Shown here one piece after another: positions 30,320 through 35,042 of a DNA stretch of 64,000 nucleotides. The DNA is from Rhizobium tropici CIAT 899 (GTDB lineage Bacteria; Pseudomonadota; Alphaproteobacteria; Rhizobiales; Rhizobiaceae): assembly GCF_000330885.1 (NCBI RefSeq), contig NC_020059.1:1911001-1975000 (forward strand), given 5' to 3'. The translations under genes were made by a program, and so were the position numbers. Under the pieces are notes generated by a model. That model worked only from the letters and a program-made list of their open reading frames with translations, was not told where the DNA came from and did no database searches. Numbering within the stretch: the stretch's first letter is position 1; every line of letters begins with the position of its first letter.

Positions 30320-30835
30320 CTAGCGTGACATCCTGAAGCAAAGGCCTGGAGTGCCGCTGACAACGATCGGCGCTTCGTACTGCATGCCGATTTTTTGTAG
30401 AACCCGCTGCGAAGCAACGTTTTCCGGATGCGTGAATGCGATGAACCGATCGGCGAAGCCTCGGCGGAAAAACCACTGTGCCAGCGCGCCGGCTATCTCC
30501 GTGGCGTAACCGTTGCCCCACGCGTCCTGCCGAAGCGAATAGCCGAGTTCGAACTCACCTCGTCCGCGCTCCTGGAAGCGCGAAAAGCCGGCACGACCGA
30601 TGAAGCGTCCATTCTCGCGCCGCAGTATCTTGTATTTCGTCACGCCGTCGCGCGCCTGCTCGCCAAACCAGCTTTTCAGCCGCTCCTCGGCCTTCTCCAG
30701 CGTCCAAGGAGTCGCGCCCGAGAGATAGCGCGTGGTCTCGATCGTCGAATGCAATTGCCGAATCGCTTCGGCATCAGCCTTATCCCACATCGTCAGAACG
30801 AGGCGTGGGGTTTCGAGTATGATGGTATTACTCAT
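30320..30835 (-). CDS. GNAT-family N-acetyltransferase (RimJ/RimL type)
   Basis: The 171-aa protein begins ILETPRLVLTMWDKADAEAI and contains FELGYSLRQDAWGNGYATEI, the acetyl-CoA-binding loop of RimJ/RimL-like enzymes, and a late NVASQRVLQKIGMQYE. These enzymes acetylate N-termini or small amines, and the substrate is unknown. ATG 30835 is chosen on family fit. The longer open frame to 30901 has no support. Confidence 0.85.
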   Translation of the reverse strand: MSNTIILETPRLVLTMWDKADAEAIRQLHSTIETTRYLSGATPWTLEKAEERLKSWFGEQARDGVTKYKILRRENGRFIGRAGFSRFQERGRGEFELGYSLRQDAWGNGYATEIAGALAQWFFRRGFADRFIAFTHPENVASQRVLQKIGMQYEAPIVVSGTPGLCFRMSR

Positions 30836-31014
30836 CTGCCTGCCTGTTTTCGTGATGAATCTCCAGCCTGCCGTAACATGTATGACAGCGCCGATTGACA
30901 ACCCGGCGGTCAGTGCTAACCGCTCGGCCTGATTTCAACAAGCCGATCAAGCGACATCTCGCATGCGAAGGCCCGCCGAAGCGGGTCTTCCAGATTATCG
31001 CTTGATATCATCCA

Positions 31015-33501
31015 TCAGTGACATGCCGGCAGACCGGGAGCGCCGCACTTCTTCTTTTCCGGAGGCTTCTGCGGCGGAGGCGGAGGTGGTCTCTTCACCT
31101 GCTGCTGCACGACCTTCGGCTGCGGCTGCGGCTGAGGCTTGGGCTGAGCCTGCGGCTTCGGCGCTGGCGCCCTCGCCTGTGCCACCACATGCGGCGCGGG
31201 TTTGGGCTGTGCAGGAGCCGGATTGGCTTGCCGGGGCGGCGTGGCAGCGACATGAGGCTGACTGCTGACACGAGGTGGATTGTTGGGGATGGCCTTGGGC
31301 TTCGCCGGAATTCTGGCGGCAACAGCCGGCGCCGCCGGAGCATGCCCATCGGGTTTCGGTGCAGCGGCGACCGGATTCGGTTTGCCGCCCGGCATTGCTT
31401 GCGGTGCCGGGGTCTTGGCAATCTGGTTTTGCCCCTTCACGGCAGGCGCATTGCCAACGGCCGGCAGCGGTTGTCCCTTGGAACCGGGAAGCGCATGTGT
31501 ATTGGCGTTCGGCGTAGCCTGAGGCTGTTGAGCCTGTTTCGTCTGCGCTGCGCCAGGATTGGCTGGCAGCTTGCCCGTGGTTGGCAAAGGTTGACCGTTC
31601 GCGCCCGGAAGCGTGTGCGCATTGGCATTTGTGCCTTGCTGGGCGGGTTGAGTGGCGACAGCCGGACTATGCACCGCATTCGGCGCAGCTTGCGGCGATT
31701 GCCCCTCCTTCGTCCGAGCCGTTCCCTGATTGACGGGCGGCTTGCCACCAGCCGGCAGCGGCTGACCATTCGCGCCGGGAAGAACGTGGGCAGCGGCGTT
31801 TCCGCCTTGCGGCTGCGCCAACGGCGCCGCCGCAGGAGCAACTCCAGGCACCGTCTTGGCGGGATTCTGCCGTTGTATAACCGCCGCCTTCTTCTGTACC
31901 GATGGCGGCAGGGCAACATGCAGTGCTGCAGCCCCTGCTCCGGCGATAACGGCCGCACCGGCGAGTTTCTGCCCTGTCGTCAACCCAGGTGCAGCGGGTG
32001 CCGCCACGTTCTCGTTGACCACAGTGTTGTTGTTGATGACCGTCGTGTTGTTCACGACCGTATTGTGGATGTTATTGAAGATGACATTGTTCTCGGGCGG
32101 CGCGATATCGCGTGGCGGCTCGACCCATGCAGGGACCGGAACGAAGACCGGTGCCGGCAACACGTAGAGATCGACCGCGGGCTGCGGTGGCGCCAACTCG
32201 ACGAAATCCGGTGGCGGCGGTGCCAGGAAGACGACGGGCGGCGGCGGTGCGTAGCCGAAATCCGCATCATCGAAATAAAGCACGGGACGGTCGACATAGA
32301 CCACCTCCGGCGGTGGGGGCGGCGGCACGTCATACTCGATCACGGTGAAAGATGGCGGCGGCTCGAGGGCTGCCTCGAAATGCTCGAGACGGCGGCGGGC
32401 ATCCCAGACGTGGGGACCGCGCGGATAACGCCTCAGATAAGACCAATAGGCCTCGGGCGTGTCGGCAACCCAGGTCTCGCGCCAGGTTATCGCCTCGCGG
32501 CGGGCGGCGACAATGGCGCGGACACGCCTGACCATGGAATCGTTCGGATAGGCGGCGAGAAAATCCTCATAGCCCTGCAGCGTGTCGCGATCGAGCGCCG
32601 CGAAATAGGCATCGCGCTCATCGAAATCGCGAATGGGCTTCGTCCGGTTTGCCACATCGTCGGTGCTCGGCACCGCAGCGGCCGGCGCGTTCGGACCGCG
32701 ATCGAAGAAGGTGAAGGCATTCTTGAATTTGGAAGCATCCCAGGAAATCTCGGCGCCCTTGGTCAAGTCGCCGACCCGCAACCGTGTGCGATCGAAGACG
32801 TCATCAAGCGAAAGGCCGCCGACGCGGATCATCTCCGCCAGCGCATGCGCGTAGGAACCATAGGGACCGGCCTCCTGCGGTGCGACCGTGCCGGGCGCCG
32901 CATTGAAGGCAATTAGCTGATTGGCATCGGGATCGACCAGCGCCAGACCACCCGCCAGCGGCTGACTGGACTGCACGAACGGATTGGCTCTCGCCGCGTC
33001 GAGCACGACGATGCTGCCACGATTGTTGATGGCCGACAGCGATTTGGTGAAGTCGCCCACGCGGATCGCCTGGACGGGGACATCCGTGGCATTGGCGATC
33101 TGCGCATCCACAGGCACGAAGTAATTGTCGCCCTGATACTGCACACCGTAGCCCGCCAGATAGACGAAGACGACGGTGTTGGGGCCTGACGCGTTGGCTT
33201 TCGTCAGAAAGTCGCGCATAGCATCGCGCAAGCTATTTTGATCGAGATCGCGCGCGCCTATCACGTCGAAGCCCGCAGCCTGCAGCGTTTGCGCGATCAG
33301 GCCGGCATCATTGGCCGGCGTCGGAAGCGCGCCCACCGTGTAGGCGGCGTTACCAACGACAAGCGCTATTCTCTTTTCAGGGGAACCCTGAGCTTCGGCC
33401 GGATTCGCAGCAGCAATACCGACCAAAGCCAACATCATGGCAAAAAATGCCCAGATCGTCTTTTTGGATGACAATCCCATCTTCGAAAGCAGAGGTGACA
33501 T
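31015..33501 (-). CDS. secreted caspase-fold pseudo-enzyme with Pro-rich repeat tail
   Basis: A signal peptide (about residues 14-38, ending AEAQ) precedes a peptidase C14-like domain (43 to about 270). In canonical metacaspase-like proteins the catalytic His sits in AGHG and the Cys in LDACR. Here they read YLAGYGVQ (Tyr118) and VVLDAARANP (Ala170), so cysteine protease activity is unlikely. After a helical middle part come Pro-rich stretches, a hydrophobic GAAVIAGAGAAAL segment near 540, and a long Ala/Pro/Gln tail with three copies of H-x-LPG-x-x-GQPLP. The end, KKKCGAPGLPACH, has a Cys pair. An alternative GTG start lies five codons upstream. Its role is unknown and the location is probably periplasmic or cell surface. 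Confidence 0.8.
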   Translation of the reverse strand: MSPLLSKMGLSSKKTIWAFFAMMLALVGIAAANPAEAQGSPEKRIALVVGNAAYTVGALPTPANDAGLIAQTLQAAGFDVIGARDLDQNSLRDAMRDFLTKANASGPNTVVFVYLAGYGVQYQGDNYFVPVDAQIANATDVPVQAIRVGDFTKSLSAINNRGSIVVLDAARANPFVQSSQPLAGGLALVDPDANQLIAFNAAPGTVAPQEAGPYGSYAHALAEMIRVGGLSLDDVFDRTRLRVGDLTKGAEISWDASKFKNAFTFFDRGPNAPAAAVPSTDDVANRTKPIRDFDERDAYFAALDRDTLQGYEDFLAAYPNDSMVRRVRAIVAARREAITWRETWVADTPEAYWSYLRRYPRGPHVWDARRRLEHFEAALEPPPSFTVIEYDVPPPPPPEVVYVDRPVLYFDDADFGYAPPPPVVFLAPPPPDFVELAPPQPAVDLYVLPAPVFVPVPAWVEPPRDIAPPENNVIFNNIHNTVVNNTTVINNNTVVNENVAAPAAPGLTTGQKLAGAAVIAGAGAAALHVALPPSVQKKAAVIQRQNPAKTVPGVAPAAAPLAQPQGGNAAAHVLPGANGQPLPAGGKPPVNQGTARTKEGQSPQAAPNAVHSPAVATQPAQQGTNANAHTLPGANGQPLPTTGKLPANPGAAQTKQAQQPQATPNANTHALPGSKGQPLPAVGNAPAVKGQNQIAKTPAPQAMPGGKPNPVAAAPKPDGHAPAAPAVAARIPAKPKAIPNNPPRVSSQPHVAATPPRQANPAPAQPKPAPHVVAQARAPAPKPQAQPKPQPQPQPKVVQQQVKRPPPPPPQKPPEKKKCGAPGLPACH

Positions 33502-33785
33502 ACCGGTTTCTTTCACGAAACATGAGGTGCGTGCGGGATCAATAGGAAAATGCCTAGGATTCGATTCGGGCGAATGCGGGACTTATTCCAGGCAGATTCG
33601 CGGCCATGTTACGGTCTATTGACGTTCACAAGTGCTCGGTTACACACGCTGCCCACGCCGAAACTTGTCGTCTGTTCCAGCAAAATGATGACGCGTCGCC
33701 AAATCGGTGCTAAACGCGCGCCCAACGTCAAACAATAGCGACTTCGCCGCGCTTTCCAGCAATGCGGCATCGAGAGACCAAGATC

Positions 33786-35042
33786 ATGGCTGAGTTCAAA
33801 TCCGATTTCCTGCACACCCTGCAAGAGCGCGGCTTCATTCATCAGATTTCCGATGAAGCCGGCCTAGACGACCTCTTCGCCAAGGAAACCGTGACGGCCT
33901 ATATCGGCTATGATCCGACGGCATCGAGTCTCCATGTCGGCCATCTCACCCAGATCATGATGCTGCATTGGCTGCAGGCGACTGGCCATCGGCCGATCTC
34001 CCTGATGGGCGGCGGCACCGGCATGGTCGGTGATCCCTCCTTCAAGGAGGAAGCCCGCAAATTGATGACCATCGACATGATCGAGGACAATATTGCCTCA
34101 ATCAAACGCTGCTTCTCGAACTATCTCGACTACAACAAGCCCGGCAACGCGGCCTTGATGATCAACAACGCAGAATGGCTGCGCTCGCTGAATTATCTCG
34201 AATTCCTGCGCGACGTCGGCCGCCACTTCTCGGTCAACCGCATGCTGTCCTTCGACAGCGTCAAGACGAGGCTTGACCGCGAACAGTCGCTGTCGTTCCT
34301 CGAATTCAACTACATGATCCTGCAGGCCTACGATTTCGTCGAATTGGCCAAGCGTTACGATTGCCGCCTGCAGATGGGCGGTTCGGATCAGTGGGGCAAT
34401 ATCGTCAACGGTATCGATCTAGGTCACCGCATGGGGACCAAGCAGCTCTTTGCTTTGACCTCGCCGCTGCTGACGACCTCTTCCGGTGCCAAGATGGGCA
34501 AGTCGGCTTCCGGCGCCGTCTGGCTGAATGCCGACCTGCTGCCGGTCTATGATTTCTGGCAATACTGGCGCAACACCGAGGATGCCGACGTTCCGCGCTT
34601 CCTCAAGCTGTTCACGACATTGCCGATGGACGAGATTGAACGGCTTTCCGCCATCGCGGGCTCCGAACTCAACGAGGTCAAGAAGATCCTCGCGACCGAA
34701 GTGACCGCGATCCTTCACGGCCGCGCGGCAGCCGAGCAGGCCGCCGAGACCGCCCGCAAGACCTTCGAGGAAGGCGGATTGTCGGAAAACCTGCCGTCGA
34801 TCGATGTTCCCTCCTCCGAACTCGACGCTGGCATCGGCCTTCTGGCTCTGATCGTGCGCGCCGGCCTTGCCGCCTCTAACGGCGAAGCTCGTCGCCATGT
34901 CCAGGGCGGCGCAGTGCGCATCAATGATCAGCCCATCAGCGACGAGCGCAAGATCATCGGCAGCAGCGAAGTCACCGCCGATGGCGTCATCAAGCTGTCG
35001 CTCGGCAAGAAGAAGCATATCCTGATCCGCCCGGCCACCTGA
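33786..35042 (+). CDS. tyrS: tyrosyl-tRNA synthetase
   Basis: TyrS charges tRNA-Tyr. The class I motifs are HVGHL (in [17 protein letters not shown], about residue 45) and KMGKSASGA in place of KMSKS (about 236). The tyrosine pocket region [17 protein letters not shown] is present, and a C-terminal S4 domain follows ([15 protein letters not shown]). It is 418 aa and cytoplasmic. A 284-base gap separates it from the divergent caspase-like gene, and an intrinsic terminator follows. Confidence 0.97.

Follow-up and report, generated by a model that had tools for sequence, protein, structure and literature searches.

The locus and its protein

The window, a 64,000-nucleotide stretch of the genome of Rhizobium tropici CIAT 899, encodes a pseudo-orthocaspase, the features of which are listed with those of its two neighbours in Table 1. 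The Pfam profile PF00656 matched the p20 domain with an E-value of 9.9e-31 (107.6 bits, cut-off 21.4), and sequence profile and fold searches together place the protein in the Peptidase_C14/caspase-like p20 superfamily, confirming the caspase-like domain that a first-pass annotation had noted here; the coding strand is the minus strand. This match and the many homologs rule out a chance or mis-framed ORF. A plus-strand frame of 632 codons opposite the tail (31018-32916) was set aside as probably a shadow of the high GC content and the repetitive Pro/Ala codons. A GTG five codons upstream is an alternative start that would give 833 residues. No sigma-70-like site was found in a promoter scan at the gene, and five terminator-like sites were counted where shuffled sequence gave 3.0 on average (sd 1.6). 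The protein had no NCBIfam match, and no family of the PADLOC anti-phage defence models matched at E ≤ 0.01.

Table 1. Features of the pseudo-orthocaspase gene and its neighbours, in positions of the window
Feature	Position	Strand	Basis or remark
Pseudo-orthocaspase gene	31015..33501	minus	828 aa; sole PF00656 match in its genome (6.69 Mb, four contigs)
Putative signal peptide, residues 1-37	33391..33501	minus	Reading of the sequence by eye
p20 caspase-like domain (PF00656), residues 43-257, Cys-free	32731..33375	minus	Pfam and family alignment
Asp65	33307..33309	minus	Retained in 86/91 distinct module-bearing p20 domains
Tyr118, catalytic-His position	33148..33150	minus	MALT1 alignment and family alignment
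Asp168	32998..33000	minus	Retained in 91/91 distinct module-bearing p20 domains
Ala170, catalytic-Cys position	32992..32994	minus	Family alignment
Conserved helical region, residues 285-385	32347..32649	minus	Weak relationship to what follows p20 in active orthocaspases
Pro-rich, then Asn-rich module, residues 386-500	32002..32346	minus	No Pfam match above cut-off
Gly/Ala-rich hydrophobic helix, residues 513-531, then Lys/Arg	31909..31965	minus	Mean Kyte-Doolittle 1.90
Pro/Ala/Gln-rich low-complexity spacer, residues 541-815, Lys-rich, few acidic residues	31057..31881	minus	Composition
C-terminal Cys pair motif CGAPGLPACH, residues 819-828	31018..31047	minus	The protein's only two Cys
tyrS (tyrosyl-tRNA synthetase), divergent neighbour	33762..35042	plus	Adjoins the gene in 23/33 named homolog loci
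GNAT acetyltransferase, downstream neighbour	30320..30901	minus	The gene lies between it and tyrS

Read by eye, the N-terminus consists of KK, a hydrophobic core and A-E-A-Q, and this reading and hydropathy, which are the basis for both export and topology, indicate that the protein is probably exported, as had been proposed, and would cross the inner membrane. Behind the p20 domain lies a tail of about 570 residues, in which no Pfam family matched above cut-off beyond residue 257; nor did the Pfam search give a separate match to p10, the domain by whose absence orthocaspases are told from metacaspases. The tail had been described as very long and of low complexity, which holds for its length and for the Pro/Ala/Gln-rich spacer, but it also contains a conserved helical region, the Pro/Asn-rich module and a terminal Cys pair. 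A family alignment of 30 rows showed residues ~300-480 to be nearly as conserved as the p20 domain, the commonest residue having a share, in 20-residue blocks, of 0.59-0.84 over 301-480 and of 0.64-0.92 over 41-260, and a shallow AF2 model predicts mostly helices over residues 280-380 (pLDDT ~65-85). The Gly/Ala-rich helix is a possible membrane segment, and the stretch behind it carries a strong positive charge (+27 in the protein encoded here). The terminal Cys motif was also considered as a general tag; the single DNA pattern tried, C-G-x-P-G-x-P-x-C, matched the genome twice, in this gene and in one 34-codon frame, which argues against that idea.

Two structure models of the protein were weak (mean pLDDT 47.6 and 59.1) because only near-identical sequences were used as input, and we therefore make no claim about pocket geometry. 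Despite this, Foldseek returned MALT1 as the best match to both models (E 2.7e-7 and 1.6e-7; query-normalised TM-scores 0.16-0.40), consistent with the earlier expectation that the caspase fold is retained, and 10 of the 11 matches in a sequence search of solved proteins were MALT1 paracaspases. Human MALT1, an active animal protease, is the nearest solved relative by sequence (E 7.2e-5) as well as by fold search, but the sequence similarity is limited to the first ~100 residues of the p20 domain.

Catalytic positions and pocket residues

The catalytic dyad is lost. The motif AGYG begins at residue 116, so that its Tyr is residue 118, and alignment to MALT1 places it on the His of AGHG; DAAR begins at residue 168, which puts its Ala at 170, a column occupied by Cys in other orthocaspases of the family alignment. 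In place of the His-Cys dyad of active orthocaspases the protein has Tyr118 and Ala170, and its Tyr-Ala p20 corresponds to the Y-A type of pseudo-orthocaspase described in PMC6426788. Both replacements had been called at these residues in the first-pass annotation. A hidden dyad elsewhere in the p20 domain was looked for and is excluded by the absence of any Cys from that domain, the only cysteines of the whole protein being 819 and 827. The protein is very probably catalytically dead, with no proteolytic activity, which agrees with the non-proteolytic role that had been suggested for it and that remains probable on sequence grounds.

Asp65, which aligns with an Asp of MALT1 and is lost in five of the 91 distinct p20 domains that bear the tail module, and Asp168 are equally conserved in active enzymes. 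By analogy, we take them as the two pocket aspartates named for TbMC2, and they may have the same place in the pocket here; section 17 of PMC6426788 states that the two TbMC2 residues are conserved in pseudo-orthocaspases. Elsewhere in the domain, positions 173, 209, 210, 216 and 251 (including Asp209, Gly210 and Pro216) are conserved in active enzymes but lost in the pseudo family; the reverse pattern, conservation among pseudo domains but not among active ones, holds at 26 positions of p20. Outside the close family the position of Tyr118 is occupied by Q, E, L, V, I or H, and since it is so variable Tyr118 itself may have no function; the Cys position of module-bearing p20 domains always carries a small residue (Ala, Gly or Ser).

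Dyad, tail and descent of the family

Among 131 aligned p20 domains the dyad positions were Y/A in 63, H/C in 65, H/Y and H/P in one each, and partial in one. All 63 close frames are Y/A, a count that includes the window's own gene and in which many species are counted twice, and the alignment of homologs confirmed in this way that Tyr118 and Ala170 are conserved as a group. The state of the dyad is strictly linked to the tail: the 91 distinct p20 domains with the module comprise 69 Y/A, 6 L/S, 3 Q/A, 3 Y/G, 2 Y/S, 2 E/A, 2 V/S and one each of H/G, H/A, I/A and V/A, with no H/C, whereas the 76 without it comprise 74 H/C, one R/A and one H/P. These counts are of distinct domains in frames of at least 500 residues, excluding shorter frames such as L101 (H/Y) and truncated copies of the same gene (96 against 77 with those copies), and they come from non-independent samples, the two groups having been gathered by different searches. 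An H/C p20 with the same module, which had been named beforehand as a counterexample, was sought and did not occur among the 91. With no H/C among these domains, and 63 of 63 close frames Y/A, loss of the dyad is fixed in the family.

When the tail was used as query, matches were found in 55 of 297 genomes of the order. Among the listed matches, 23 end within the first 133 of the 331 query positions, that is in the helical region or slightly beyond, and all 13 of these that were examined are H/C; every listed match extending past position 133 was retrieved. A class-wide search of 385 genomes gave 14 with a match, nine of them outside the order, all weak except G748 (E 5e-20), the strongest outside the order, which has an H/A dyad. 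Long open frames occur in Rhizobium and as far out as distant families of the order. Two single-change caspase homologs of the window's genus, L110 (G147; H/P) and L101 (G011; H/Y), fall outside the pseudo family. Two copies of the gene appear to be broken: L243 on a plasmid of Phyllobacterium sp. 628, with a split match and no CDS annotated at the gene, and L227 (G251), where the match is limited to residues 450-513.

The cysteines follow a similar pattern. Among 85 closed frames with the module, 84 are free of Cys over 230 residues counted from where p20 begins, the whole frame has exactly two Cys in 65, and 68 carry the terminal pair, against 3 of the 75 module-less closed caspases. Nine of the 17 that have no terminal pair are of the L/S or V/S type; the other eight include Y/A, Y/S, H/G and H/A members, and because of these the pair is not universal. 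The pseudo family is marked by its Pro/Asn-rich module and by this pair. Active Hyphomicrobiales orthocaspases (H/C, PF00656) share with it the p20 profile, Asp65/Asp168 and the weakly related helical region, but differ in the intact dyad, the absence of the module and the low frequency of the Cys pair (the 3 of 75 above).

In an 81-row tree built by quick search, 22 non-redundant pseudo domains, including the module-less R/A protein L159, fell on one side of a branch with an SH-aLRT of 94, and a second tree, of 45 rows and with 10 selected active outgroups, gave 100/100 support to the branch that divides the two groups. Three members that have kept His and lost Cys sit on two separate branches of the 45-row tree, and the tree fits, but does not prove, an order in which Cys was lost first and His later and several times. 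Selection was estimated by the Nei-Gojobori method for the window's gene against nine relatives. The dN/dS values were 0.04-0.13 for p20, 0.04-0.12 for the helical region and 0.03-0.17 for residues 386-500 (nine of nine pairs in each case), 0.00-0.15 for the Gly/Ala helix (eight of nine pairs defined), 0.15-0.33 for the low-complexity part (seven of nine defined) and 0.23-1.22 for the signal peptide (eight of nine defined). From the p20 values we conclude that the inactive domain is maintained by selection.

The window's protein is a genuine, selected member of a class that has already been described. Klemencic et al. (2019; PMC6426788) reported Rhizobiales Y-A/Y-S pseudo-orthocaspases, which share the Tyr-Ala p20 and a prolonged C-terminus without an identifiable domain; Rhizobiales account for 561 of 582 alphaproteobacterial pseudo-orthocaspases in that study, their commonest dyads are Tyr-Ser, Tyr-Ala and Phe-Ser, and the YS/YA proteins mostly have prolonged C-termini (section 13). 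The first-pass annotation had taken the combination of Tyr/Ala with such a tail to be uncommon, which these figures contradict. A separate survey gave 75% dyad conservation in Alphaproteobacteria, with Tyr as the most frequent replacement of His (PMC3501461). The sections of PMC6426788 examined differ from the present account in that they describe no conserved tail module or its strict linkage to the dyad, no terminal Cys pair, no fusions of active and pseudo domains, no MipA/OmpV neighbour and no mismatch with photosynthesis for this branch. By these results one named pseudo-orthocaspase class contains a coherent, selected family, set apart by a dedicated tail module and in most members by a terminal Cys pair, and no mere scatter of dead enzymes.

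SyOC of Synechocystis PCC 6803 (PMC7889975), likened here by description, is also a bacterial pseudo-orthocaspase, but it is cyanobacterial and the abstract of that paper is silent on a tail of this kind; its deletion led to higher oxidative-stress tolerance. In Bradyrhizobium a 'caspase family protein' (bll3611), a candidate relative, is under NnrR control (PMC6710368). Among the papers listed in literature searches, none dealt with an experimentally tested homolog from Rhizobium. As the gene encodes the only C14 protein of its strain, the function of a bacterial pseudo-caspase could be tested there by a single deletion.

Genomic setting and likely role

The 23 of 33 named homolog loci at which the gene adjoins tyrS are mostly from Rhizobium, and the other 10 have no tyrS on the stretch examined. 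No neighbour was conserved across the wider family, the widest shared cluster covering 5 of 31 loci with crude ORF picking. A conserved operon partner was considered and rejected, since none is common to the 31 compared loci and MipA is limited to six loci. In seven Rhizobium records the gene lies on large plasmids, but in the window's genome it adjoins tyrS on contig C1, and from these two settings it follows that the gene has moved between places. An annotated MipA/OmpV gene is found 53-102 bases downstream on the same strand in four of the seven plasmid records, three of the records carrying no annotation. By tblastn, full-length MipA/OmpV matches were present at 6 of 19 loci (L234-L237, L050 and L051), with fragments at L241 and none at the remaining 12; the six, which comprise the four plasmid records and two other contigs, all have the gene directly downstream on the same strand. 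The neighbour is missing at the window's locus. MipA is a scaffold of wall enzymes. On two of the Rhizobium plasmids (L235, L237) curlin and csgH genes are located just upstream of the pseudo-orthocaspase.

We put at about 0.6 the probability that the protein is an exported, catalytically dead Y/A pseudo-orthocaspase that acts by binding, most likely with a binding or scaffold role in the envelope; its binding role, location and partner are what we infer. After passage through the inner membrane, the p20 groove, which retains Asp65 and Asp168 and has a small residue at the Cys position, would still bind Arg/Lys-containing peptide segments without cleaving them. Through its helical and Pro/Asn-rich parts this receptor may be offered to a partner. 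The Gly/Ala helix, the basic Pro/Ala spacer and a terminal disulfide may anchor or tether the protein in the envelope, to which the MipA/OmpV gene downstream of some homologs is a pointer. Pseudo-orthocaspases are likewise read as scaffolds or binders of basic substrates in sections 17 and 18 of PMC6426788. A fuller version, which we offer as speculative, is that of a mostly Hyphomicrobiales family of envelope receptors that would have arisen once from within active enzymes, lost Cys and then, in more than one way, His, and become locked to the module and the terminal disulfide. Such receptors might sense or sequester basic periplasmic peptides, either antimicrobial peptides of hosts or rivals or the products of cleavage, and relay this to machinery of the outer membrane or the wall, MipA/OmpV being an example.

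It seems unlikely that the p20 domain is a mere structural spacer, with the tail module and terminal Cys pair as the functional parts, which could for instance tie membrane, wall and outer membrane together in the periplasm. Constraint on residues 386-500 and on the Gly/Ala helix is similar to that on p20, the Cys pair accompanies the module (68/85 against 3/75), and the +27 charge behind the helix is in keeping with this idea. A spacer would, however, have no need of 26 pseudo-specific conserved p20 positions or of Asp65 and Asp168, and the 17 of 85 frames without the Cys pair include some Y/A members.

Also unlikely, and ranked after the spacer, is that the protein pairs with an active orthocaspase and tunes it, as a decoy or regulatory partner, in the way that cFLIP-L does with caspase-8; TbMC4 and cFLIP-L are discussed as parallels in section 18 of PMC6426788. 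Two proteins, L230 (G352, 1127 aa) and L231 (G438, 1129 aa), each combine in one chain an intact H/C p20 and, behind it, an L/S pseudo-p20 with the module, which indicates that both kinds can act together, but such fusions were seen only in these two genomes of a single family (f20). Among 40 carrier genomes of the window's genus, defined as those of 148 genomes with a long match of at least 75% identity, another PF00656 match was present in 13; in the other 27, the window's genome among them, there was none, and the protein can therefore work without an active relative.

We give little credence to a hydrolase or other enzyme with new chemistry, in which Tyr118 or Asp168 would be the catalytic group. 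None of the 63 close frames departs from Tyr118, and Asp168 is present in 91 of 91 domains, but Asp168 is just as conserved in active enzymes, and the variability of the Tyr118 position beyond the close family, with only Ala, Gly or Ser at the Cys position, leaves no conserved replacement nucleophile.

A role in photosynthesis, proposed in 2019 for pseudo-orthocaspases from their taxonomic distribution (PMC6426788), is hardly credible for this branch: the reaction-centre profile PF00124 matched in 7 of 77 carriers and in none of the other 70, which include all 40 of the window's genus, the window's genome among them (the 77 being those 40 and 37 of the 55 tail-search genomes, with Synechococcus elongatus detected as control). 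With photosynthesis genes absent from most carriers and an active caspase absent from many, neither photosynthesis nor regulation of an active partner covers the family. Equally hard to credit is a decaying former protease without function, for although both catalytic residues are gone and broken copies exist (the Phyllobacterium sp. 628 plasmid and the G251 fragment), p20 dN/dS stays at 0.04-0.13 in nine of nine pairs, and long open frames are found in Rhizobium as well as in families of the order that are distant from it.
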